DNA of 64,000 nt from Micromonospora profundi (GTDB lineage Bacteria; Actinomycetota; Actinomycetes; Mycobacteriales; Micromonosporaceae). Both the position numbers and the translations under genes were made by a program. Positions 53,540-64,000 of the stretch are shown piece after piece. The notes under the pieces were generated by a model. It was not told the DNA's origin. It worked only from the letters and a program-made list of their open reading frames with translations, and made no database searches. Location: the NCBI RefSeq assembly GCF_011927785.1, contig NZ_JAATJK010000001.1:2232001-2296000 (forward strand). The letters are read 5' to 3'. Position 1 is the first letter of the stretch. Each line of letters begins with the position of its first letter.

Positions 53540-53593
53540 TGGGTGCGAGCCGTCGGCCGCAATGGGTTGACCGACCCCACCGCAGCCCCTATC

Positions 53594-53630
53594 GTTCCAG
53601 TACGTAGAACGGCGTACGGCTCAGTCGAAC
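53594..53630. promoter_or_regulatory. Cluster operator copy 1 (before the isomerase/FAD oxygenase unit)
   Basis: 37-base element starting GTTCC-N7-AGAACG and ending CGAAC, 25 of 37 bases identical to the element at 57287-57323. Contains the dyad GTTC-N9-GAAC. Lies 15 bases before the first start codon. Binding by the IclR protein at 55713 is inferred from genome context. Confidence 0.7.
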
Positions 53631-53645
53631 GATTTGGCGGTTGTA

Positions 53646-54437
53646 ATGGTCGAGGCAGCTCTGGGCATCATTGTTCCACCCGCCAACCCCACTGTTGAGC
53701 CGGAACTCCGTCGCCTGCTGCCGGCGCGGGTCCGCTACCACGTCGCCCGGCTGCCTGTCGTGAACGGCTCACTCGCGCAGCGGCTGGACCGCTACGCCGA
53801 ACTGCTGCCGGACACCGCCGCCACGCTCGACGGCCTCGACCTGCGCGCCACCTACGTCGCCTGCACCGGCTGCTACTACCGGCCGGGTCGCGGCGACGTG
53901 CACCGCACCGACAAGGCGGCGAGCGAGCGGCTCGGCGCACCGGTGTTCGGGGCGGCGAACGCGGTCCGGCAGGTGCTCGACCGCCTCGCGGTCCGGTCAC
54001 TGACCCTGATCTCGCCGTACCCGGACTGGCTCACCGAGCAGGCGGCGGCATTCTGGCGCGCGAACGGCCGCAGCGTCGGCACGCCGGTACCGGTGCCCGG
54101 CACCGGCGCCATCTACGACCTCAGCTCGACCACCGTCCGCGACACCGTGCGGCAGACCCTGCGCTCGCTCGCCGACGACGGTTTCCCGCCCGGGCACGCG
54201 GTGCTGCTGACCGGGACGGGCGCACCCAGCCTGGACGTCCTCGACGAGGTCCTGCCGCAGACACCCGTCCCGGTGCTGTCGTCCAACCTCGCCGGCGCCT
54301 GGCAGTTGCTGGAGACCGCCGGAATCACCCACCTGGCGGGCGAATCACCCAGCCCGGCGTTGCGGCACCTGGCCGCCACCCTGACTCAATCCCCCTCGAC
54401 CGGAATCGTCGGCGTTGTCGCCGGCGGGAAGGAGTGA
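53646..54437 (+). CDS. Maleate isomerase / arylmalonate decarboxylase-like enzyme
   Basis: 263 residues of the Asp/Glu racemase superfamily. GIIVPPANPTVEPELRRLLP is the N-terminal signature of the maleate isomerase and arylmalonate decarboxylase branch. The first active-site loop has Cys73 (ATYVACTGCYYRPG). The second, normally SCTxLxTLDVI in two-Cys isomerases, reads LLTGTGAPSLDVLDEVLP, so Gly190 stands where the second Cys should be. Two-Cys members isomerise or racemise; one-Cys members decarboxylate. Bacterial AMDase keeps the second Cys and has Gly at the first: here it is the reverse. A decarboxylase or lyase is therefore likelier than a maleate isomerase. First gene of the IclR-controlled cluster, overlapping nothing but coupled to the FAD enzyme. 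Confidence 0.82.
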   Translation: MVEAALGIIVPPANPTVEPELRRLLPARVRYHVARLPVVNGSLAQRLDRYAELLPDTAATLDGLDLRATYVACTGCYYRPGRGDVHRTDKAASERLGAPVFGAANAVRQVLDRLAVRSLTLISPYPDWLTEQAAAFWRANGRSVGTPVPVPGTGAIYDLSSTTVRDTVRQTLRSLADDGFPPGHAVLLTGTGAPSLDVLDEVLPQTPVPVLSSNLAGAWQLLETAGITHLAGESPSPALRHLAATLTQSPSTGIVGVVAGGKE

Positions 54438-54439
54438 AC

Positions 54440-55639
54440 GTGGCGTCCACCAGTCACGCCGTGCAAGCCCCAGTCGTCGTTCTCGGTGGCGGGCCGGTGG
54501 GCATGGTGACGGCCCTCGCCCTGGCCCGCCGGGACATCCCGGTGATCGTTCTCGAACGTGGCCCGGACGAGGTGCGGTCGGAGTGGCGCGGCTCCACCGT
54601 TCACCCCCCGACGACCGAACTGCTCGACGAGCTCGACCTGGCCGCCCCGCTGCTCAAGGAGGCGGTCCGGGTACACCGGCTGGACTACCGCGACCTGGAG
54701 CTGACCGAGTCCGCCTGCTTCTCCTACGAGGCGCTCGAAGGTGAGACCCGGTATCCGTTCCGGTTGCAGTACGAGCAGTACAAGCTGGTCCGGCTGCTGC
54801 GCCGCGCGGTCGCCGAGACACCGAACGTGGACATCCGGTTCGGGCACGACGTGGTCGGCCTGCGTCAGGACGACACGCATGTCGAGTTGGACGTGACTGT
54901 CGACGGCGCCCCGAGCGTGGTGAGCGCCCAGTGGGTGGTGGCCGCCGACGGCGCGCACAGCACCGCCCGCAAACTGCTCGACGTTCCGTTCCCCGGCTTC
55001 ACGTACCCGACGCTGAGCCTTGTGGTGGCCACCCCGTTCCGCTTCGAGGACGCGGTGCCCGATCTCGGCGCGGTCGGCTACTGGTCCGGCCCGAAGGGCC
55101 GCTTCTCGCTGATCAGGACCCCCGACATCTGGCGTGCGGCGCTGTCGACGGGCACCGGCGTCGACGACGAGCCCCCGTCCGGCACGCACCCGGCCTTCCT
55201 GGCCGCCGTGGACCTGCTGCTGGGGGGCACGCCCGACGCCCGCGAGTTGCCGCTGAGCCAGCACCAGACCTACCGCAGCCACCAGCGGCTCGCGGAGTCC
55301 TTCCGGATCGGCCGGGTGCTGCTGGCCGGCGACGCCGCCCACCTGAGCAGCACCACCGGCGGCATGGGTCTGAACTCGGGCATCCACGACGCGGTGGCGG
55401 TCGCCATCGCGCTGGCCGAGCCGGACCCGGACACGGCCACCAGTGAGTACGCGCAACGTCGCAGGTCGATCGCCGAGCGCTTCGTCCAGCCGACCACGAC
55501 GGAGAACCGCACCTCGGCCGACGGTGTCGAACTGGCCGGTCGCCGCGAGCGGCTGCTGCGCCTGCGGGCGCTCGCCGACAACCCCGAGGACGCCCGAAAC
55601 TACCTCCGCCGTGTCAGTATGCTCGGGATCCAGCACTAG
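54440..55639 (+). CDS. FAD-dependent monooxygenase (aromatic hydroxylase)
   Basis: About 399 residues, PHBH fold. FAD motif VVLGGGPVGMVTALALARRD at the N-terminus, the WVVAADGAHSTARKLL stretch (DG motif) in the middle and RVLLAGDAAHLSSTTGGMGL (GD motif) near 290. Such enzymes hydroxylate or open electron-rich aromatic or heteroaromatic acids with NAD(P)H and O2; MHPCO and 6-hydroxynicotinate 3-monooxygenase are relatives. Of the GTGs at 54434 and 54440, the second is better spaced from AAGGAG; the first would overlap the upstream stop. Coupled to the isomerase-like gene. Confidence 0.9.
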   Translation: MASTSHAVQAPVVVLGGGPVGMVTALALARRDIPVIVLERGPDEVRSEWRGSTVHPPTTELLDELDLAAPLLKEAVRVHRLDYRDLELTESACFSYEALEGETRYPFRLQYEQYKLVRLLRRAVAETPNVDIRFGHDVVGLRQDDTHVELDVTVDGAPSVVSAQWVVAADGAHSTARKLLDVPFPGFTYPTLSLVVATPFRFEDAVPDLGAVGYWSGPKGRFSLIRTPDIWRAALSTGTGVDDEPPSGTHPAFLAAVDLLLGGTPDARELPLSQHQTYRSHQRLAESFRIGRVLLAGDAAHLSSTTGGMGLNSGIHDAVAVAIALAEPDPDTATSEYAQRRRSIAERFVQPTTTENRTSADGVELAGRRERLLRLRALADNPEDARNYLRRVSMLGIQH

Positions 55640-55692
55640 ACGTCGGGCGTTCATCACAGCCAGATCGGTCAACCGCTGGCGTCGTTCCTATG

Positions 55693-55706
55693 CACCTCGA
55701 GAGGTG
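55693..55706 (+). promoter_or_regulatory. Palindrome covering the IclR ribosome binding site
   Basis: CACCTC-GA-GAGGTG, 6-bp arms, seven bases before the IclR ATG. The right arm is the Shine-Dalgarno, so folding could hide it, or it could be a small operator. Confidence 0.5.
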
Positions 55707-55712
55707 ATCTGA

Positions 55713-56642
55713 ATGGGGATCAGCGTGCCGACGTCCGAGTCGGAGGACGGTCATCGCTACACGACGAGCGGCCTGGGTCGCGCCCTGGCCGTGATCGACC
55801 TCCTCGCCGAACGCAGCCCGGAGATGATCGGGGTGTCGACTGTCGCCCGGGTCCTGAACCTGCCCAAGGCGGTGGCCCACCGCATCCTCAAGGAGCTGAC
55901 GGCCAACCAGTTCGTCACGTTCGACGAGGGCACCCGGCGCTACCGACTCGGGCCGGGCGCCCTCGCGGTCGGGCTGGCCGCCCTGCGCGCCATCGACGTG
56001 CAGGCGATCACCAACCGGCACATGCGGCGGTTGGTGGAGGCCACGGGGGAGACGGCGACCCTGTCGATGCGGCAGGGGTGGGTGCGGGTCTACACCGACC
56101 AGGTGCTCTCGCCGCACGAGATCCGGATGTCGGTCACGCTCGGTTCCCGCCATTCGCTTGTCGCCGGGTCGTCGTCCAAGGCGATCCTGGCGGCGCTGCC
56201 CGATTCCGAGATCGCCGAATACCTGGCCACCCATGAGCTGGTATCGGTCACCGCGGCCACCATCACGTCCGTCGAGCAGCTCTGGGCCGATCTGCGGGAG
56301 ATCCGTGAGCTGGGCTACGCGGTGAGCCGGGGCGAGCGGCAGGCCGGCGCGGTGAGTGTGGCCGCGCCGATCCGGCTGGCTTCCGGCGAGGTCTACGGGT
56401 CGTTGTCACTGTGCGGCCCTCAGGACCGTTTCTCGGCGCAGCTGCTTGTCGAGTACGGCGACCTGGTGGCCGACGCGGCCCGCCAGGTCAGCGCCGAGCT
56501 GGGCTACCAGCCCTCCGCGACGCAGGACGCCCCGGAGCCGGAGCCGGTGGAGCGCAAGCGTGCGCCCCGGCGTCAGGCGACGCGGTCGCTCGCGGACCAC
56601 GCCGCGACCAGTTCGGCCGAGGTCGTCGTCTCGCAGAAGTAG
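55713..56642 (+). CDS. IclR-family transcriptional regulator
   Basis: 309 residues. N-terminal winged helix GLGRALAVIDLLAERSPEMI, GVSTVARVLNLPKAVAHRIL then KELTANQFVTFDEGTRRYRL, and the IclR effector domain from ~90 to 270 (LSMRQGWVRVYTDQVLSPHE, AGSSSKAILAALPDSEIAEY, LREIRELGYAVSRGERQAGA). A ~35-residue basic, Pro-rich tail is beyond the usual 250-260 length. It lies between the FAD oxygenase and the transporter unit; matching 37-base elements before both support it as the cluster's regulator. Its 3' end overlaps the convergent hydrolase gene by 70 bases. Confidence 0.9.
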   Translation: MGISVPTSESEDGHRYTTSGLGRALAVIDLLAERSPEMIGVSTVARVLNLPKAVAHRILKELTANQFVTFDEGTRRYRLGPGALAVGLAALRAIDVQAITNRHMRRLVEATGETATLSMRQGWVRVYTDQVLSPHEIRMSVTLGSRHSLVAGSSSKAILAALPDSEIAEYLATHELVSVTAATITSVEQLWADLREIRELGYAVSRGERQAGAVSVAAPIRLASGEVYGSLSLCGPQDRFSAQLLVEYGDLVADAARQVSAELGYQPSATQDAPEPEPVERKRAPRRQATRSLADHAATSSAEVVVSQK

Positions 56643-57193
56643 AAGCCCAGGTTGCGGATCGCCGCCTCGGCGAGGTCCGCGCGGGTCCAGCCGACCAGGT
56701 CGGTCGGCATCGTGGCGGCCAGGTCTGCCATGTACGCGTCGCGGATGGTGGAGTCCACGCAGACGTTGGCGGCCGTCCCGACCGCTACCACGTGGTCACG
56801 TCCGTGCGCGCGAAGCAGGTTGTGCAGTGGCGTGCCCACGAACGCGCTGTAGCGCGTCTTCTCCAGGTGGCAGTCGCCCGGCTCGGGGCGCAGACCCTCG
56901 GCGAGTTCGGCGCCCCAGGAGCCGGCGGCGCAGACACTGAGCGGGCTGCGGCCCATCGCCTCGGCGCGGGCCCGCCGGGCCGGTGAAACGAGCTGCTCGT
57001 GGGCGGCCTGCCGCACCCAGATGACCAGGCATCCCGCGGCCCGCGCCCGGTCGAGGAAGCCCGGCAGCCGGCGGGCCAGCTCGGTGTTCACGCCGACGTC
57101 TGCGCCGAGCTTCGCCATGGCCCCGGTGGGGGAGCAGAAGTCGTTCTGCATGTCGATGACCAGCACCGCTGTGCGCTGCGGCAGGTGTTCCAT
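56573..57193 (-). CDS. Isochorismatase-like cysteine hydrolase
   Basis: 206 residues. The catalytic triad is present: Asp14 (LVIDMQNDF), Lys112 (LEKTRYSAF) and Cys145 (TAANVCVDSTI), so it should hydrolyse an amide such as N-carbamoyl, nicotinamide or maleamic-acid-type substrates. The family includes N-carbamoylsarcosine amidase and maleamate amidohydrolase NicF. Sits opposite the rest of the cluster and shares the promoter region with the ABC transporter. GGAGA lies before the ATG at 57191-57193. A role in amide removal from a ring-cleavage product is an inference. Confidence 0.88.
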   Translation of the reverse strand: MEHLPQRTAVLVIDMQNDFCSPTGAMAKLGADVGVNTELARRLPGFLDRARAAGCLVIWVRQAAHEQLVSPARRARAEAMGRSPLSVCAAGSWGAELAEGLRPEPGDCHLEKTRYSAFVGTPLHNLLRAHGRDHVVAVGTAANVCVDSTIRDAYMADLAATMPTDLVGWTRADLAEAAIRNLGFYFCETTTSAELVAAWSASDRVA

Positions 57194-57286
57194 GGGCGTT
57201 TCTCCGGAGTTGGGCGATTAGTAGGGAACTAGTCGTATGGAGTCGGGCCCTGCGGACCATTGACCTCGCCGCCGAACATAGCTTAC

Positions 57287-57323
57287 GTTCCCTCCAACAG
57301 AACGCCGTACTGCACAAGCGAAC
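57287..57323. promoter_or_regulatory. Cluster operator copy 2 (before the ABC transporter unit)
   Basis: Same 37-base design as 53594-53630: GTTCC-N7-AGAACG ... CGTAC ... CGAAC. Lies 94 bases from the start of the isochorismatase-like gene and 46 bases from the ABC ATPase, so may serve both directions. Confidence 0.7.
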
Positions 57324-57368
57324 AAACCCGCGTTGAATTTCACGGACCGGCCGGTGACAGGGGTACCC

Positions 57369-58166
57369 ATGAGTGCGATCAAAGTGGAGGGCGTCAGCAA
57401 GGTCTTCGCCGGCGCCGGTGGCCAGTCGATGCTCGCGCTGAGCGACGTCTCACTCGACATCGCCGACGGTGAGTTCGTGGTGCTGTTGGGCCCCTCCGGC
57501 TGCGGCAAGACCACACTGCTGCGGATCATCGGTCAGCTGGAGAGCCCGACCGTGGGGCGGGTGCGAATCGACCACGGCGACCGGCAGGAGAACGCCGACC
57601 GCCCGCTGGGCTTCGTCTTCCAGGAAGCCACGCTGATGCCGTGGCGGTCGACGGGCGCCAACGTCGCCCTGCCGCTGGAGATGGCCGGCGTGGGCCGCCG
57701 GGAGCGCGAGGAGAAGGTCCGCGAGATGCTGGCCCTCGTCGGGCTGCCCGAAGCGGCGAACAAGCTCCCGCACCAGCTCTCGGGCGGTATGCGGCAGCGG
57801 GTCTCCATCGCCCGGGCGCTCGCGCACGACCCCCAGGTGCTGCTCATGGACGAGCCGTTCGGCGCCCTGGACGCGCAGACCCGCGACATGATGAACGCCG
57901 AGTTGCAGCGCATCTGGCTGGAGAACCGCAAGACTGTCGTCTTCGTGACGCACTCCGTCTCCGAGGCCGTCTTCCTGGCCGACCGCATCGTGATGCTGGG
58001 GACCAAGCCCGGTCACATCCACTCCATCACCGAGGTGACGCTGCCGCGTCCGCGCACCCTCGCGATGACCGAGTCCGCCGAGTTCCGCTCCCTCGCGACC
58101 GAGCTGCGCCGCCAGATCGGCGAGGTGCAGCAGGACAACGACATTCGACCCGCCGTCTCGGCCTGA
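57369..58166 (+). CDS. ABC transporter ATP-binding protein (NitT/TauT type)
   Basis: 265 residues. Walker A LLGPSGCGKTTLLRIIGQLE, Q-loop VFQEATLMPWRS, signature LSGGMRQRVSIARALAHDP, Walker B VLLMDEPFGALDAQTRDMM and the switch His in VVFVTHSVSEAV. Group of SsuB/TauB/NrtD ATPases that power uptake of sulfonates, nitrate, taurine, thiamine precursors and aromatic compounds. AGGGG precedes the ATG. First gene of the transport and ThDP-enzyme operon, followed 21 bases later by the permease. Confidence 0.93.
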   Translation: MSAIKVEGVSKVFAGAGGQSMLALSDVSLDIADGEFVVLLGPSGCGKTTLLRIIGQLESPTVGRVRIDHGDRQENADRPLGFVFQEATLMPWRSTGANVALPLEMAGVGRREREEKVREMLALVGLPEAANKLPHQLSGGMRQRVSIARALAHDPQVLLMDEPFGALDAQTRDMMNAELQRIWLENRKTVVFVTHSVSEAVFLADRIVMLGTKPGHIHSITEVTLPRPRTLAMTESAEFRSLATELRRQIGEVQQDNDIRPAVSA

Positions 58167-58187
58167 TCAGCAACTGAGGTGTCGCAC

Positions 58188-59060
58188 GTGACCACTACAG
58201 ATCAGCGCCACCCGGCGCCGACGTCGCCCACCGCGGAACAGCTACGCCCCCCGCCGCTGACGCTGTCGCAGCGACTGCGCAACAACCGCTGGCTGTCCTT
58301 CTACACCAGCCCTCTGCTCATCGCGCTGTTCCTGGTCGCCTGGAAGGTCTACGTCGAGGTCACGGACCTGTCCCGGTTCGTGCTCCCGGCGCCGGAGGCG
58401 GTGTTCAAGTCCTTCATCGAGCAGATCACCGACCCGTTCGTGTGGCAGACCCACATCTGGACGACCTTCTACGAGGTCATCATGGGTCTGGCGCTGGCCA
58501 TCGTCCTGGGCGTCGGGCTCGGCCTGATGATCGGCAAGTCGCCGCTGTTCGACCGCATCGCCCGGCCGTTCATCGTGGCCACCCAGGTGGTGCCGAAGGT
58601 CGCGCTGGTCCCGCTGTTCATCCTCTGGCTGGGCTTCGGCCCGTCGTCCAAGGTGGTCATGGCGGCGCTGCTGGCGTTCTTCCCGCTGCTCATCAACACC
58701 TCGTTCGGCGTCCGTTCGGTTCCGAGCTCGATGCACGACCTGATGACGACGCTGAAGGCGTCCCGCTGGGAGCGGTTCTGGCGGGCCGACCTGCCGTACA
58801 CGATGCCGTTCATCCTGGCCGGCATGGAGCTTGCGGTCGTCCAGGCGACCATCGGCGCGATCGTCGGTGAGTACCTCGGCGGTGACAAGGGCCTCGGCCG
58901 GTACGCCGTCAACCTCCAGAACGGCCTACAGGTCGACAAACTGTTCGGCGCGATCCTGATCATGGCGTTGTTCGGCTTCACCCTCTACAGCATCGTGACC
59001 GGCGCCCGCCGGTTGCTGATCCCCTGGCACGAGTCCGTGCAGCCACGCCGTACCCCCTGA
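58188..59060 (+). CDS. ABC transporter permease (NitT/TauT type)
   Basis: About 290 residues from GTG 58188, well spaced from GAGG at 58176-58179 (an in-frame GTG at 58179 also exists). Six helices; TFYEVIMGLALAIVLGVGLG and the EAA-like coupling loop LMTTLKASRWERFWRADLPY, characteristic of the SsuC/TauC permeases. A single permease homodimer is expected in this type, so the set with ATPase and binding protein is complete. Confidence 0.92.
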   Translation: MTTTDQRHPAPTSPTAEQLRPPPLTLSQRLRNNRWLSFYTSPLLIALFLVAWKVYVEVTDLSRFVLPAPEAVFKSFIEQITDPFVWQTHIWTTFYEVIMGLALAIVLGVGLGLMIGKSPLFDRIARPFIVATQVVPKVALVPLFILWLGFGPSSKVVMAALLAFFPLLINTSFGVRSVPSSMHDLMTTLKASRWERFWRADLPYTMPFILAGMELAVVQATIGAIVGEYLGGDKGLGRYAVNLQNGLQVDKLFGAILIMALFGFTLYSIVTGARRLLIPWHESVQPRRTP

Positions 59061-59179
59061 CAGGTCCGCTCCTCCCACACCCGATCCCTGGTCGGCGCCG
59101 CGACGCGGCGCGGGCAGGTCACGCCTTGCCTTTCTCCGTCGCACACCTTCATCCCCCTCCTCCGCACCGGGAGATCTTC

Positions 59180-60253
59180 ATGAGAAACGACCGTTCCATT
59201 GGCGCGCCGGTCTCGCGGCGTTCGTTCCTTCGGGCCAGCACCACCGCCGGGCTTCTGCTGCCCACCGCCGGTGGCATGACCCTGCTGCTCACCGGCTGTG
59301 GCGGCGACGACGACAAGGTCAACGCCGACGGCAGCCTCAACGGCTCGTACATGACCGCCTCCGGCATGACGCTGAGCTTCGTGGAGACGATGGTCGCCAA
59401 GGAGCGCGGCTTCTTCTCCGAGTTCGGCCTCGCCCTGGACATCAAGGGTGGGCAGGGCACCGCCACCGCCATCCAGGCGGTGCTGGGTGGCTCGGCCGAC
59501 CTGACCCGGGCCAACGGCATCAACGCGATCATCGCGGTGGCCAACGAGGACGCGCCGTTCGTCAGCATCGCCAGCGTGCGGCAGAAGTCGCAGTTCGAGG
59601 TGGTGTCCCTGCCGAACAAGCCGATCCGCAACCCCGCCGAGCTGGCCGGACGCACCTGCGGCATCGTCTCCACCGGTGGCGCCACCGAGAACCTGCTCGA
59701 CGTCATGCTGATCAACGCGGGGGTCAACCCCAAGTCGGTGAAGCGTCCGGTCACCGGTGTCGGCACCGCCGCGTACGAGTTGGCCCGCAAAGGCGACGTG
59801 GACGCGTGGATCTGCGTCAACACCGACCGGGCCACCATCCAGAAGGACGTCGGCGAGGTCGTCTTCTTCAGCACCGACGACTTCGCACCGATGCCGTCGG
59901 ACTCGTACAACACCAGCGCCAAGATGGTCGAGTCGGGCAGCGACATGCCGGTGAAGTTCCTCGCCGGCGTGCTCAAGGCCATCGACTACGCCAGCAAGGA
60001 AGCGAACTGGGATCAGGTCATCAACGACCTGCGCAAGTACAACCCGGAGGCCGACCCGGCCCAGGCCCGTGCCGAGCTGCCACTGCTGGTGGAGAGCTGG
60101 CTGGCTGCCGGCCCGGACAAGGCCCTGGAGATGAACGAGCAGACCTGGCTCAAGGGTCAGGAGAGCCTCGTCAAGGCCAAGCTGGTGAAGTCCGCGGCGC
60201 CGATCGACAAACTGATCAACCGCAGCTACCTCGAGCGCGCGAGGAACCTGTGA
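59180..60253 (+). CDS. ABC transporter substrate-binding lipoprotein (Tat-exported)
   Basis: 357 residues. Twin-arginine motif SRRSFLR at 12-18 and lipobox LLTGC with Cys40: exported folded and lipid-anchored. The mature part is NMT1/ThiY/SsuA-like (MTLSFVETMVAKERGFFSEF, GLALDIKGGQGTATAIQAVL, GSADLTRANGINAIIAVANE), including CGIVSTGGATENLLDVMLIN. Binds the imported ligand for the ABC transporter. GGGAG precedes the ATG. Coupled by GTGA to the ThDP enzyme gene. The ligand is likely an aromatic or small carboxylate given the adjacent enzymes; not provable from sequence. Confidence 0.92.
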   Translation: MRNDRSIGAPVSRRSFLRASTTAGLLLPTAGGMTLLLTGCGGDDDKVNADGSLNGSYMTASGMTLSFVETMVAKERGFFSEFGLALDIKGGQGTATAIQAVLGGSADLTRANGINAIIAVANEDAPFVSIASVRQKSQFEVVSLPNKPIRNPAELAGRTCGIVSTGGATENLLDVMLINAGVNPKSVKRPVTGVGTAAYELARKGDVDAWICVNTDRATIQKDVGEVVFFSTDDFAPMPSDSYNTSAKMVESGSDMPVKFLAGVLKAIDYASKEANWDQVINDLRKYNPEADPAQARAELPLLVESWLAAGPDKALEMNEQTWLKGQESLVKAKLVKSAAPIDKLINRSYLERARNL

Positions 60254-61983
60254 CCGGCGGCCCGGCCGCCGCAAGCGCCGCCTCCGCGGTCCTGGCGGCG
60301 GCCGCGGCCAGCGGTGTGCGACGGCTGTGGTTCAACAGCGGCTCCGAGCTGACCTCGTTCCAGGAGGCCAGCGCGCAGGCCCGGCACCAGGGCGAGCCGA
60401 CCCCCCAGATCATCACCTGCCCCCACGAACACGTCGCCCTCACCGCGGCGATGGGCGAGACGATGGTCACGGGCCAGCCCTCCATGACCGCTGCCCACGC
60501 CGACCTCGGCCTGCTGCACCACGGCGGCGCCATCCACAACGCCATGTGGGGCGACCACCCCATCATGATCATGTCGGGCTATCCGCCCACCCGCGCCGAG
60601 TCGCGCAACTCGCCGGTGTTCTGGAAGCAGCAGCGCTGGGACCAGGGCTCGATCGTGCGGCAGTACGTCAAGTGGGACTACAAGCTGTCCGCCCTCGACG
60701 ACGCCGCCCTGGTGGTGGCGCGTGGCTTCCAGGTCGCCCTCGCGCCCCGGCGCGGCCCCGTCTACCTGGCGATGCCCGAAGAGGTGGGCCGGCACCCGAT
60801 CCCGGTCGGCAACCCGGTCCCCAGCGCCCAACGGCTCGGCATCCCGACCCTGGGACCGGGCGACCACGGTGTGGTCAGCGAGGTGGCCCGCCGCCTCACG
60901 ACCGCCCGACGGCCCGTCATCGTCACCGACCGCGTCGGCGTCAACCCGCACGCCGTGACGTTGCTGGCCGAGTTGGCCGACACCCTCGGCGTGGAGGTAC
61001 GCGCCACCCGCTACCGGATGAACCTGCCCGACGACAACCCGTGGCACACCACCGCGCCACTGGACGAGTTCGACGTCATCGTCGTGCTGGACCATCCGGT
61101 GCCGTGGATGCCCGCCGTGGAACGTCCCCACGAGGACGCGTGGATCGGCTGGGCCGGACCCGACCCGATCGAGGGTCGCGTCCCGCTGTACGAGCTGCGC
61201 GCCGACGCGCGTACCACCGCCGACCCGGCGGCGTTCCTCGCCGCCGTGCTGGCCGAGGTCGGCGCGGCCGGACCGGGCGACGCCGACGCCGTACGCCGGC
61301 GGCGGCAACGGCCGCCGGCCGCCGCGCCGCGACCTGCCGGTGGCAACGCGGCGGTCTCCGGTGCTCCCACGCCCGCGCTGATCGCCGCGGCCCTGGACCG
61401 GCACCTGCGCCCCGACGACCTGCTGACCTGGGAGGTGTTCGACACCGCGCCGGTTCGCCGGACGAAGCCGGGAACCCTCTTCGAGAAGGGCGGGTCCAGC
61501 CTCGGCTGGTCGGTGGCGGCGGCCACCGGCGCCAGCATGGCCGCCGGCGGCGCGCACGCCGTGGCGGTCACCGGCGACGGCTCGTACCTGTTCGGCTCGC
61601 CGGACTCGTGCCTGTGGTTGCAGCAGCAGCACGACGCGCCGGTGGTCACCGTGGTGGTCAACAACGGCGGCTACCGCACCGGCACGACCACCCTTGCCGC
61701 GCACTACCCGGACGGCCTGGCCGTCACCGAACCCACTGTGCTCGGCGGCCACCTCACCCCGTCGCCGGACTTCGCGGCGCACGCCCGCTCGCAGGGCTGC
61801 TACGGGGAGCAGGTGGTGCGGGCGGCCGACCTCACCGCGGCCCTGGACCGGGCCCGTACGGCGGTGGCGCGCGACCGCGTCCCGGCCGTGCTGGACGTCT
61901 GGGTGCCCGAGCATCTCACCGGGTCGATGGACCCGGCACGCCGGGCACGCCCGGCTCACGACGAAGGGAACACCGATGGCTGA
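60250..61983 (+). CDS. Thiamine diphosphate-dependent enzyme, uncharacterised subgroup
   Basis: 577 residues from GTG 60250. Three ThDP domains: the PYR domain with conserved Glu60 (CPHEHVALTAAMGETMVTGQ), central domain (RRPVIVTDRVGVNPHAVTLL), and PP domain with AVTGDGSYLFGSPDSCLWLQ ending in the Mg/ThDP NN motif (471-472). The N-terminal FNSGSELTSFQEASAQ and the AHADLGLLHHGGAIHNAMWG region belong to a poorly studied subgroup labelled only thiamine pyrophosphate-requiring protein. Family chemistry is decarboxylation or carboligation of 2-oxo acids (as in benzoylformate decarboxylase). Together with the aldehyde dehydrogenase it could turn a 2-oxo acid into an acid via an aldehyde. Overlaps the next gene by 8 bases. 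Confidence 0.9.
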   Translation: MTGGPAAASAASAVLAAAAASGVRRLWFNSGSELTSFQEASAQARHQGEPTPQIITCPHEHVALTAAMGETMVTGQPSMTAAHADLGLLHHGGAIHNAMWGDHPIMIMSGYPPTRAESRNSPVFWKQQRWDQGSIVRQYVKWDYKLSALDDAALVVARGFQVALAPRRGPVYLAMPEEVGRHPIPVGNPVPSAQRLGIPTLGPGDHGVVSEVARRLTTARRPVIVTDRVGVNPHAVTLLAELADTLGVEVRATRYRMNLPDDNPWHTTAPLDEFDVIVVLDHPVPWMPAVERPHEDAWIGWAGPDPIEGRVPLYELRADARTTADPAAFLAAVLAEVGAAGPGDADAVRRRRQRPPAAAPRPAGGNAAVSGAPTPALIAAALDRHLRPDDLLTWEVFDTAPVRRTKPGTLFEKGGSSLGWSVAAATGASMAAGGAHAVAVTGDGSYLFGSPDSCLWLQQQHDAPVVTVVVNNGGYRTGTTTLAAHYPDGLAVTEPTVLGGHLTPSPDFAAHARSQGCYGEQVVRAADLTAALDRARTAVARDRVPAVLDVWVPEHLTGSMDPARRARPAHDEGNTDG

Positions 61984-63400
61984 TGTCGTTTCGCCTATCG
62001 ACGGCCGGGTCCTGACCCACATCGCGCCCGCCTCGCCTGCCGAGGTGGACGCCGCCGTCCGGGAGGCGCGTGCCGCCCAGCCGGCGTGGGCCCGCCGCAC
62101 CGGCAGCGACCGTGGCCGGATCCTGCACGCGGTCGCCGACCTCATCGAGGCCCGCATCGACGAGCTGGCCGAGACCGAGACCCGCAACACCGGCAAGATC
62201 CTCAGCGACACCCGCCGGGAGGCGATCCGGGCCGCCAACAGCTTCCGCTACTACGCCGGCTGGGCCGAGCAGGTACGGGGCGAGACCATCCCGGTCGGTC
62301 CGGAGTACCACACCTACACGGTGCCCGAGCCGCACGGCGTCGTCGCCGGTGTCATCCCGTGGAACGTGCCGTTCTTCTTCGCGGTTAAGAAGATCGCCCC
62401 GGCGCTCGCCTTCGGCAACGCCTGCGTGCTCAAGCCGGCCGAGGAGACGCCGTTGACGGCCCTGCGGCTGGCCGGCCTGCTGGCCGAGGCGGGCGTGCCC
62501 GACGGGCTGGTACGGGTGCTGCCCGGTGGCCGGGAGACCGGCGTGGCACTGGTGTCGCACCCGGACGTCGACCTGATCGTGTTCACCGGCCACCACGACA
62601 CCGGCAAGGCGATCGCCCGGTCGGCGGCGGCCAACCTGACCCCGGTGGCGCTGGAGCTGGGGGGCAAGTCGCCGCAGGTCCTCTTCCCCGACGCCGACCT
62701 GGACCAGGCCGTAGACGCAGTGGTGCTGGGCGTATTCGCCTCCTGCGGGCAGATGTGCATCGCCGGCTCCCGGCTGGTCCTGCACGAGTCGATCTACGAC
62801 GACGTGCTGGACCGGGTGGCCGAGCGGGTGCGGTCACTGCGGGTGGGCGACCCGTTCGACGCCGAGACGGACCTGGGTCCGCAGATCACCGCCGTGCAGC
62901 GGGACAAGACGGCGGCGTTCATCGCCGAGTCCAGCGGCGTGGGTCGGCTTGTCGCGCAGGCCACGCTGCCGGACACCGAGCGGCTGCGCAACGGCTTCTA
63001 CGTGGCGCCGACGGTGTTCGACAGGTTGGACGACAACGCCCGCCTGCTGCGCGAGGAGGTGTTCGGGCCGGTCCTCGCGGTGTCGTCCTTCCGCGACGAC
63101 GCCGACGCGCTGCGGCTGGCCAACGACACTGAGTTCGGCCTGGCTGCGGGCATCTGGACCGCCGACATCGCCCGCGCACACCGGTTCGCCGGGCAGGTGC
63201 GGGCGGGCACGGTGTGGATCAACACCTACCGGGTGATGTCCGACCTGGTGCCGTTCGGCGGTGTCGGCCTGTCCGGGTACGGCCGCGAGAACGGCACCGA
63301 GGCGGCCCGGCTCTACCTGCGCTCGAAGTCGGTGTGGACCTCGCTGACCGGCGGCACCCCGCAGGGGTACGGCATGGGAGGCGCTGGTGCGGCAGGCTGA
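61976..63400 (+). CDS. Aldehyde dehydrogenase
   Basis: 474 residues. NAD(P)+-dependent class 3-fold ALDH with Asn130 (IPWNVPF), Lys153 (LKPAEETPLTALRLAG), Glu227 (LELGGKSPQ) and catalytic Cys261 (CGQMCIAGSR). FTGHHDTGKAI replaces the more usual FTGSTxxG, a small change near the cofactor site. Likely oxidises the aldehyde produced by the ThDP enzyme. Overlaps the preceding gene by 8 bases and the following by 14, so translationally linked. Confidence 0.93.
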   Translation: MADVVSPIDGRVLTHIAPASPAEVDAAVREARAAQPAWARRTGSDRGRILHAVADLIEARIDELAETETRNTGKILSDTRREAIRAANSFRYYAGWAEQVRGETIPVGPEYHTYTVPEPHGVVAGVIPWNVPFFFAVKKIAPALAFGNACVLKPAEETPLTALRLAGLLAEAGVPDGLVRVLPGGRETGVALVSHPDVDLIVFTGHHDTGKAIARSAAANLTPVALELGGKSPQVLFPDADLDQAVDAVVLGVFASCGQMCIAGSRLVLHESIYDDVLDRVAERVRSLRVGDPFDAETDLGPQITAVQRDKTAAFIAESSGVGRLVAQATLPDTERLRNGFYVAPTVFDRLDDNARLLREEVFGPVLAVSSFRDDADALRLANDTEFGLAAGIWTADIARAHRFAGQVRAGTVWINTYRVMSDLVPFGGVGLSGYGRENGTEAARLYLRSKSVWTSLTGGTPQGYGMGGAGAAG

Positions 63401-64000
63401 CCGCCCGACCGGGTCACCGGTCGACGCGCCAGCCGACGAGAGAGGCCGCGGCGGTCTCGCGCTACTGCGGGACCGCCGCTTCGGCCCGTACTTCTTCGGG
63501 TCGCTGGCGTCGAACACCGGCACGTGGTTCCAGAACGTCGCGGCGATCCTGACGATCTACGCGCTGACCCGCTCGGCGTTCATGGTGGGTCTGGTCACCG
63601 CCCTGCAGTTCGCCATGCAGTTGGTCCTCGCCCCGGTGATCGGGGCGTTGGCCGACCGTGTCGACCGGCGGCGGCTGATCATCGTGGGGCAGACGCTCGG
63701 CGGTTCCGCCGCGGCGGTGCTCGCGCTGCTGGCTTTCCTGGACGCGTTGAACCCGGGGCTGCTGCTCACGTTCATCGGGTTGTCCGGGGTGGGTCAGGCG
63801 ATCACCGGTCCGGCCGCGCAGGCGTTGGTGCCCAATATCGTGGGCCGCGCCGACGTGCCGCAGGCGATCGCCCTGCACTCGCTGACGTTCAACCTGTCGC
63901 GGGCCATCGGCCCGGTGGCCGGGGCGGCCACGTACGCGGTGGCCGGCGCCGGTACGGCGTTCGCCGTCAACGCCGCAAGCTTCCTGGCGTTCGCGCTGGC
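63387..64000 (+). CDS. MFS transporter, truncated by the right edge
   Basis: The first 204 codons from GTG 63387 (GGGAGG five bases upstream) are visible; the rest lies outside. RFGPYFFGSLASNTGTWFQN then VAAILTIYALTRSAFMVGLV, LAPVIGALADRVDRRRLIIV match the MFS_3 (enterobactin exporter EntS-like) group. Overlaps the aldehyde dehydrogenase by 14 bases, so it is part of the cluster. Could export a toxic intermediate or take up the substrate. Confidence 0.88.
   Translation, partial: MRQADRPTGSPVDAPADERGRGGLALLRDRRFGPYFFGSLASNTGTWFQNVAAILTIYALTRSAFMVGLVTALQFAMQLVLAPVIGALADRVDRRRLIIVGQTLGGSAAAVLALLAFLDALNPGLLLTFIGLSGVGQAITGPAAQALVPNIVGRADVPQAIALHSLTFNLSRAIGPVAGAATYAVAGAGTAFAVNAASFLAFAL

Follow-up and report, generated by a model that had tools for sequence, protein, structure and literature searches.

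An IclR-linked gene cluster of Micromonospora profundi with a shared candidate operator and a proposed role in the breakdown of an N-heterocyclic organic acid

Introduction

Several described catabolic systems share enzyme families with the locus treated here, a gene cluster of Micromonospora profundi that lies at the end of a 64,000-nucleotide stretch (contig NZ_JAATJK010000001.1, positions 2,232,001 to 2,296,000; hereafter the window). In the superfamily to which its first protein belongs, maleate isomerase and the two-base racemases require both of their active-site cysteines. The nicotinate (nic) pathway includes NicD, an alpha/beta hydrolase, and the usual hydratase of coenzyme A (CoA) pathways of the itaconate/mesaconate type is a MaoC-type enzyme.

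An original prediction, made from the letters of the window alone, had proposed a tightly coupled, IclR-controlled cluster for the import and breakdown of an aromatic or N-heteroaromatic acid, matching no pathway that could be named. Family profile searches confirmed all of its gene classes and their positions. The ten genes are, in order, an Amdase-fold protein (AMD), a flavin adenine dinucleotide (FAD) monooxygenase (FMO), the IclR regulator, an isochorismatase-fold hydrolase on the opposite strand (ISO), the ATPase, permease and binding lipoprotein of an ATP-binding cassette (ABC) importer, a thiamine diphosphate (ThDP) enzyme (TPP), an aldehyde dehydrogenase (ALDH) and a transporter of the major facilitator superfamily (MFS). 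Searches of an open-access collection without most subscription journals yielded no described pathway for this gene set. In this work we describe the shared operator that marks the cluster, its extent and its relatives, and we propose a role for it.

Results

Shared operator and its candidate regulator

Two promoter-like sequences, one ahead of AMD and the other ahead of the ABC importer genes (Table 1), are both followed by one 24-base element that emerged from the alignment of relatives. Among five genomes, the distance between TTGACC and the element is 40 nt at the ABC promoter in all five, while at the AMD promoter it is 40 nt in two and 41 nt in three. The operator pattern GAACGGCGTACKGCWCANNCGAAC, built from four genomes and searched with at most three mismatches, has 2 matches in the window against 0.01 expected by chance. 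Some match at this threshold occurs in 42 of the 151 genomes of the genus; a pair of sites about 3.7 kb apart is found in exactly the 7 genomes that carry an AMD orthologue. The cluster itself is thus rare.

The sites divide sharply according to the distance from the hydantoinase-like gene (HYD), which lies past the window edge. There are 57 sites in the 151 genomes, and all 25 with no or one mismatch are within 25 kb of HYD, compared with 2 of 8 at two mismatches and none of 24 at three; 8 of the 25 best sites come from the four genomes used for the pattern, and more do if M. gifhornensis (L030) is among the rest. By this split, the element is a regulatory signature and the three-mismatch matches are background. 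The same division is seen from the side of the gene: an operator site is present within 25 kb in 20 of the 22 loci with HYD at 74% identity or above, and in none of the 12 loci at 68-71%. Two further candidates were not accepted. A third operator upstream of CaiB has 6 mismatches, which is within the shuffle level (5-7), and a site in M. marina with 4 mismatches falls below this range but the range comes from only 10 shuffles.

For the regulator, 30 genomes were chosen: the 7 with paired sites, 12 with a good site from the 35 further matched genomes, M. marina (G181) and 10 without a match. An IclR relative (E 1e-60) was present in 19/19 of the chosen operator-bearing genomes and in 0/10 of those without a site. 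In each of the 12 operator genomes outside the seven, the IclR gene (59-66% identity) is 10.9-12.2 kb from the site. A shared operator at the target promoters that co-occurs with the regulator is what characterizes an IclR regulon, and we infer that IclR binds the candidate operator. The original prediction of a single co-regulated, IclR-linked cluster for import and breakdown is upheld.

Conservation and extent of the cluster

Three of the seven other loci fetched, L023, L024 and L025, have all ten window genes in colinear arrangement (73-95% identity), and the same gene order recurs in M. gifhornensis (L030). Therefore, the cluster is not a product of chance. Loci L026-L029, one of which is from the same genus, have an AMD relative and not the ten-gene set; L031 and L025 are one contig. 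Reading the contig onward, it was found that the eleven genes after MFS are matched with their order kept in three genomes (G193, G295 and G216) at 74-95% identity: CaiB, Cyc, PrpD, HYD, CitE, ApbE, a flavin reductase, two alpha/beta hydrolases (ABH1 and ABH2), a luciferase-like monooxygenase (LLM) and GntR. The unit thus measures 22 kb with about 21 genes and ends at about 75708 in window numbering, not at 64000 as first supposed, and the window holds about half of it.

This extension also changes what can be said about ring cleavage, which the original prediction had found lacking in the gene set. The unit is truncated by the window edge, and beyond it lie LLM with a flavin reductase as well as two families of ring hydrolases (HYD and Cyc), all of which are candidates for ring opening as judged by family. 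Similarly, the absence of a deformylase can no longer be claimed, given the two alpha/beta hydrolases just outside the window and the fold of NicD.

Tight coupling is borne out by four overlaps of 4 to 14 bases (AMD/FMO 54434-54437, SBP/TPP 60250-60253, TPP/ALDH 61976-61983 and ALDH/MFS 63387-63400, where SBP is the substrate-binding lipoprotein), which point to translational coupling. The 3' ends of the convergent IclR and ISO genes overlap by 70 bases (56573-56642), and a convergent overlap also exists in L023-L025.

Outside the unit the genomes diverge. Gene content past GntR differs among the genomes compared, and the left flank is common to L024, L025 and L030, with L022 and L023 each having its own. 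A tyrosine recombinase gene (Phage_integrase, 83 bits; L110 17133-17999, window-equivalent 80133 onwards) stands 1.4-4.4 kb past GntR in all four genomes at 82-93% identity, with differing intervening genes; it may be a housekeeping flank or an island marker. In G295, the AMD gene (L024 12336-13121) carries an in-frame TAG located 13 residues short of the usual end; the final residues would thus be either dispensable or lost in that genome.

Table 1. Features of the cluster. Plain positions are those of the window; L110 is the same contig read onward (add 63000 to an L110 number to obtain the window number). Except on annotated plasmids, genes were called by our own choice of open frames, and some starts (e.g. 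PrpD) are wrong.
Feature	Position	Strand	Remarks
Promoter-like TTGACC-17-TATCGT	53567..53595	+	upstream of operon 1; TTGACC kept in 5/5 aligned sequences including its own
Operator 1, GAACGGCGTACGGCTCAGTCGAAC	53607..53630	+	40 nt from TTGACC start, before AMD
AMD, Amdase-fold protein (PF17645, 47 bits)	53646..54437	+	TGTG clade; has Cys73, and Gly190 where AMDase has C188
FMO, group-A FAD monooxygenase	54434..55639	+	PF01494 180 bits
IclR-family regulator	55713..56642	+	candidate binder of both operators
ISO, isochorismatase-fold amidohydrolase	56573..57193	-	RutB-like, below cut-off
Promoter-like TTGACC-17-TTACGT	57260..57288	+	upstream of operon 2
Operator 2, GAACGCCGTACTGCACAAGCGAAC	57300..57323	+	40 nt from TTGACC start, before ABC operon
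ABC importer ATPase	57333..58166	+	alternative start ATG 57369 may apply
ABC importer permease	58179..59060	+	SsuC/TauC type
SBP, substrate-binding lipoprotein	59180..60253	+	NMT1/THI5 fold; twin-arginine motif SRRSFL, lipobox LLTGC
TPP, ThDP enzyme, PRK08327-like	60250..61983	+	N-terminal Glu (HEHVA), GDG...NN motif
ALDH, aldehyde dehydrogenase	61976..63400	+	catalytic Cys and Glu motifs
MFS transporter	63387..64000	+	cut by window end, runs to ~64658
MFS end	L110 1655		
CaiB, CoA-transferase (family III)	L110 1757-2953		
Cyc, cyclase PF04199	L110 2985-3836		
PrpD, MmgE/PrpD family	L110 3832-5247		
HYD, hydantoinase/allantoinase-like	L110 5292-6755		
CitE, CitE/RipC-like lyase	L110 6755-7627		
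ApbE	L110 7760-8623		
Flavin reductase	L110 8607-9119		
ABH1, alpha/beta hydrolase	L110 9149-9994		
ABH2, alpha/beta hydrolase	L110 9994-10737		
LLM, luciferase-like monooxygenase	L110 10737-11945		
GntR	L110 12708-11959	-	opposite strand

Lower block and upper modules

Eight genomes whose sites lie outside the AMD cluster were read, and each of them has a long open frame that begins near the site and, after it, a related ABC importer (ATPase 46-50%). The upper genes of L198, the one locus profiled, encode a flavoprotein of the old yellow enzyme (OYE) type (575 bits for the mycofactocin OYE_2 model, cut-off 793), a methyltransferase-domain protein, a small protein without a family match and an NMT1-type binding protein. 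Five of these loci were read further, and all five continue with IclR and then CaiB (79-80%), Cyc (71-73%), PrpD (69-71%), HYD (75-77%) and CitE (53-58%). M. marina and M. sonchi have the CaiB-Cyc-PrpD-HYD-CitE block (61-81%) and IclR (56-59%) together with two Amdase-fold proteins and another ABC importer, and a genome from another genus of the family holds HYD (71%), CaiB (75%), Cyc (59%), PrpD (52%), TPP (48%) and importer subunits (56-57%) on one contig.

At a threshold of E 1e-120, HYD was present in 25 of the 394 genomes compared across the class, and in 17 of the 137 genera. Near 19 such loci, which leave out the second copy of our own genome, we counted CaiB 17, PrpD 18, Cyc 14, CitE 12 and IclR 11 times, against 0 of 20 control stretches for each; the control stretches are from one genome, while the AMD loci examined below are from many. 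A counterpart of the methyltransferase-type protein from the OYE module, with 62% identity, occurs in Dactylosporangium roseum within an AMD-FMO-Cyc-PrpD-methyltransferase-ALDH set, and this similarity links the OYE and AMD-FMO upper modules. We read these arrangements as one lower pathway that would be fed by interchangeable upper modules, and we hold the regulon with its shared lower block to be highly probable. Since the lower module and IclR are common to genomes with different upper modules, IclR probably senses an intermediate of the lower pathway.

Two other arrangements of the block were noted. In R. gordoniae it stands with HyuA/HyuB and an amidase, and near HYD in 5 of 25 clustered loci there is a small protein family with one member just at the cut-off of the PF01177 racemase fold (31.1 of 31 bits).

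The Amdase-fold protein

AMD relatives were collected with patterns for AMD, so the sample is biased to its clade, although positions 73 and 190 are outside the patterns; the best 80 of 211 matching loci were kept. The tree table has 83 rows, including three Micromonospora copies with Cys that are left out of the following counts. The position of AMDase (arylmalonate decarboxylase) C188, which is also that of the second maleate isomerase Cys, is Gly within the TGTG motif (residue 190) in 80/80 relatives. The first position (73) is Cys in 46 and another residue in 34 (18 Leu, 7 Met, 3 Ile, 3 Ser, 2 Val and 1 Phe). According to record titles, all 34 are in Pseudomonadota, and they need not be independent, as one change on the tree suffices (support 70/18). 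Because 34 of 80 relatives are without this Cys, the sequences indicate that it cannot be a requirement of the whole family, and the label of one-Cys isomerase does not describe the family; Cys73 may still be working in the actinomycete branch.

The residues that define AMDase (PMC4996985, Table 4) are shared only in part. Equivalents of P14, P15 and Y126 are found in VPP 10-12 and SPY 123-125, where P11 alone of the two Pro residues is invariant in 52 relatives. In place of G74 and C188 there are Cys73 and Gly190, and in place of the dioxyanion hole T75 S76 G189 listed there, T74 G75 T191. The pair of active-site cysteines of maleate isomerase and the two-base racemases is also missing, the second being Gly throughout. 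A true AMDase or maleate isomerase identity was therefore rejected by these residues, and the database labels of clade members (arylmalonate decarboxylase, maleate isomerase and EutA) are not borne out. The residues invariant in the 52 relatives are N14, E20, R46, Y50, T74, Y78, Y125, W128, T130, Y157, G190-T191-G192, W219 and a few more. In the predicted model (pLDDT 93.2, pTM 0.90), residues 73 and 190 are each two residues past the end of a strand (E68-71 and E184-188), which fits two half-sites.

The comparison of gene neighbourhoods that had been suggested for the isomerase gave a frequent partner. An FAD monooxygenase lies within 3.5 kb of AMD in 50 of 80 loci, 25 of 46 with Cys73 and 25 of 34 without it; by a looser neighbourhood count, it is near 52 of 80 AMD loci, while one of the 20 control stretches has it. 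The distances of AMD and FMO are correlated over 35 dereplicated pairs (Mantel test, r 0.762; 0 of 2000 permutations as high). This correlation shows common inheritance, reflecting shared ancestry plus linkage, and not function. Our tentative proposal, to which we give slightly less than an even chance, is that the TGTG protein and FMO are a conserved two-enzyme unit of Actinomycetota and Pseudomonadota, in which an Asp/Glu-racemase fold without catalytic cysteines would probably convert the unstable product of FMO by isomerisation, decarboxylation or ring opening, and that the unit is one interchangeable upper module of a common IclR-controlled pathway for cyclic amides.

The partners of AMD bear on two other explanations. 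In hydantoin-type utilisation, AMD would be the racemase, HYD the hydantoinase and ISO the carbamoylase, with the rest serving side-chain metabolism; the classic trio of racemase, hydantoinase and carbamoylase folds is indeed matched by these three proteins, HYD adjoins AMD in L060 and L067, and the borderline PF01177 family is near HYD in 5/25 clustered loci. However, AMD has one Cys and many of its relatives have none, against the two needed by two-base racemases, and its commonest partner is FMO (50/80) rather than HYD (17/80), so we consider this explanation quite unlikely. The other would have FMO act as HinF (imidazoleacetate monooxygenase) in a route like that of histamine and imidazoleacetate. 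Alphaproteobacterial FMO-AMD loci do carry a class III aminotransferase, ALDH and an ABC importer, as with hinC/hinD (PMC8231116 and PMC6467879). On the other hand, no aminotransferase was recognised in the cluster of the window, and among the Hin proteins HinL is annotated as an enamine deaminase and HinG/HinH as amidases, none of these as an AMDase-fold protein. We regard such a route as the least probable of those considered.

Other surroundings of AMD relatives were recorded. In L095 and L100, the gene immediately after that of a TGTG-clade protein encodes a canonical two-Cys maleate isomerase-like protein, so that nature offers a pair in which the two chemistries could be compared. In Streptomyces and relatives (L104, L093, L103 and L108; L029 and L082 in part), AMD-FMO adjoins a second racemase-fold gene (PF01177 57.5 bits in L104), and hemB-, hemA- and hemL-like genes were noted by eye, the last of which Pfam places among the class III aminotransferases; the pair may serve biosynthesis there. 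On Rhodococcus plasmids of two species (L115 and L116, 13986-17182), a TGTG-clade AMD is beside two LLM monooxygenases and a RimK-ligase/aminotransferase set, with no FMO within 3.5 kb.

Other enzymes and transporters

FMO has the motifs of a group-A flavoprotein monooxygenase (GGGPVG 18, ADG 171 and GDAAH 299) in addition to PF01494, with PnpA and HspB as its nearest solved relatives, and TPP has those of a ThDP enzyme, with the catalytic Glu, GDG-NN and PF02775/PF02776. HYD can be assigned to the cyclic amidohydrolases from its motifs, with H64, H66, K156, H216, H274 and D347 as the metal ligands by motif; its score for allantoinase TIGR03178 is 229.5 bits (cut-off 357.85), which does not assign it to that equivalog. 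ISO carries the Asp and Cys motifs of RutB.

TPP and FMO would also fit the degradation of a homocyclic aromatic acid like mandelate, where a ThDP decarboxylase and ALDH trim the side chain, FMO hydroxylates the ring and the nitrogen enzymes serve only for an amide substituent. The nearest solved relatives of TPP are benzoylformate decarboxylases, and FMO has PnpA (p-nitrophenol monooxygenase) among its own. Also, LLM, alpha/beta hydrolases, two ThDP enzymes, an alpha-hydroxy acid oxidase and succinate-semialdehyde dehydrogenase (SSADH) are grouped on a Neorhizobium plasmid, about 11 kb from a gentisate dioxygenase. However, the similarity of TPP to benzoylformate decarboxylase is weak (71 bits; 102 bits for model NF005485, cut-off 493), and a closer match for TPP is the PRK08327 group, which is uncharacterised (422.5 bits, below the cut-off of 456). 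No ring-cleavage dioxygenase was recognised in the family hits of the 21 genes, and the explanation leaves no role for HYD and Cyc, which are among the most conserved parts. We judge a mandelate-like route unlikely. The parallels to nicotinate and mandelate in the original prediction hold at the family level only, so both assignments were rejected.

The Neorhizobium plasmid carries a PRK08327 protein above the cut-off (658 bits), which is an independent link among PRK08327, LLM, alpha/beta hydrolases and SSADH. A Shinella plasmid with acnA, a cyclic amidohydrolase, isochorismatase, ALDH, FMO, AMD and an NMT1-type importer provides the same functions in another phylum. On plasmid p4 of Pukyongiella litopenaei (L174 6387-20556), flavin reductase-HyuA-HyuB-ABH-LLM-ABH-ABC importer-LysR lie between two Tn3-family transposases; the set looks like a mobile catabolic unit and ties the LLM unit to hydantoinase/oxoprolinase.

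The MFS transporter belongs to the MFS_3 family with exporter-like relatives. This would suit a non-catabolic locus, either for a specialised metabolite or for detoxification, with IclR and the importer serving a signal molecule, as would the AMD relatives beside ligase/aminotransferase sets on Rhodococcus plasmids and the tyrosine recombinase gene past GntR in 4/4 genomes. Against this, family searches recognised no polyketide synthase, nonribosomal peptide synthetase or ligase domain in the unit, and the combination of an ABC importer, a CoA-transferase, a CitE-type lyase and ALDH with an IclR operator is typical of catabolic gene sets. A non-catabolic locus thus seems improbable.

Discussion

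Proposed pathway

The explanation that we prefer for the whole, at somewhat better than an even chance, is a 22-kb catabolic regulon that imports and degrades an N-heterocyclic organic acid of the cyclic ureide or imide type. IclR would control two main promoters through the shared operator, one for operon 1 (AMD-FMO-IclR) and one for operon 2, which we take to run from the ABC importer through TPP, ALDH and MFS onwards, with ISO divergent from it. The NMT1-type lipoprotein would capture the solute for import by the ABC system. The upper module (FMO with its frequent partner AMD, TPP and ALDH, and LLM, flavin reductase and hydrolases downstream) would oxidise and trim the ring and side chain, TPP cleaving a 2-oxo acid to an aldehyde and ALDH oxidising the latter. 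HYD and Cyc would then hydrolyse ring C-N bonds and ISO free amide or carbamoyl nitrogen. Finally, CaiB would make a CoA ester, PrpD hydrate/dehydrate or epimerise it, and CitE cleave it to central metabolites.

We prefer a cyclic ureide or imide to a plain aromatic acid because C-N hydrolases of three folds occur in one regulon and hydantoinase partners occur in relatives. The original choice of an aromatic or N-heteroaromatic acid is possible, and owing to the lower block the N-containing ring is its likelier half.

Several observations weigh against this explanation. At the operator, 6 of the 8 two-mismatch sites are not near HYD, 2 of the 22 close HYD loci (those of M. marina and G952) are without a site, and in M. 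marina, where IclR (58%) and the lower block are both present, the best site has 4 mismatches. The genome of the window also carries a second Cyc-PrpD-HYD set without operator (G000:C1:602575-604023; L153 10076-11524), whose HYD is 69% identical. AMD-FMO and the lower block are often apart, as HYD, PrpD and ISO accompany only 17, 12 and 14 of the 80 AMD loci, respectively. None of the enzymes tested reaches the curated cut-off of an NCBIfam model listed for it, and the amidohydrolase, isochorismatase, PrpD and CaiB families also have substrates that are not heterocyclic.

The cluster offers a testable regulon, with operator, regulator and about 21 genes, for a breakdown route that has no named substrate in the literature searched, and it shows how one lower pathway could be reused with different upper modules. 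In addition, the AMD clade questions the assumption that cysteine chemistry is a need of the fold.

Comparison with known systems

AMD shares with the AMDase of Bordetella (PF17645, NF052327) the fold, family, carboxylate-binding Tyr (Y125) and VPP motif; unlike AMDase, it has Cys for G74, Gly for C188, Gly for S76 and Thr for G189, and scores 52.8 bits against a cut-off of 225. Among solved structures, its top matches are chains of AMDase; the first of them has Cys at the equivalent of 74 and Ser at 188, which we take to be the engineered G74C/C188S variant of inverse selectivity. The natural AMD looks like this Cys74/Ser188 chain yet fails the AMDase criteria tabulated in PMC4996985. Maleate cis-trans isomerase (NicE type) and EutA have in common with AMD the superfamily, the first Cys and the Asn of the VPPANP loop. 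They differ by the second Cys, and canonical two-Cys copies occur beside TGTG copies in M. marina and M. sonchi.

Like the nic pathway, the cluster has an FAD monooxygenase, an isochorismatase-fold hydrolase and an isomerase-fold protein, and its alpha/beta hydrolases could include a NicD-type enzyme. Its transporter and lower pathway differ, and no NicX-type (2,5-dihydroxypyridine) dioxygenase was recognised among the family hits of the 21 genes. The Rut pyrimidine pathway resembles it in joining a RutB-like isochorismatase hydrolase, flavin reductase, alpha/beta hydrolase and luciferase-like monooxygenase in one unit; however, the scores are low (RutB 114 of 378 bits, RutF 58 of 255 and RutD 44 of 239), and no RutA match was listed. 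Finally, although RipC at 150 bits is below its cut-off of 375 and a PrpD family protein takes the place of the MaoC-type hydratase, the lower block resembles the CoA pathway of the itaconate/mesaconate type (CaiB transferase, RipC/CitE lyase) in combining a CoA-transferase III with a C-C lyase.

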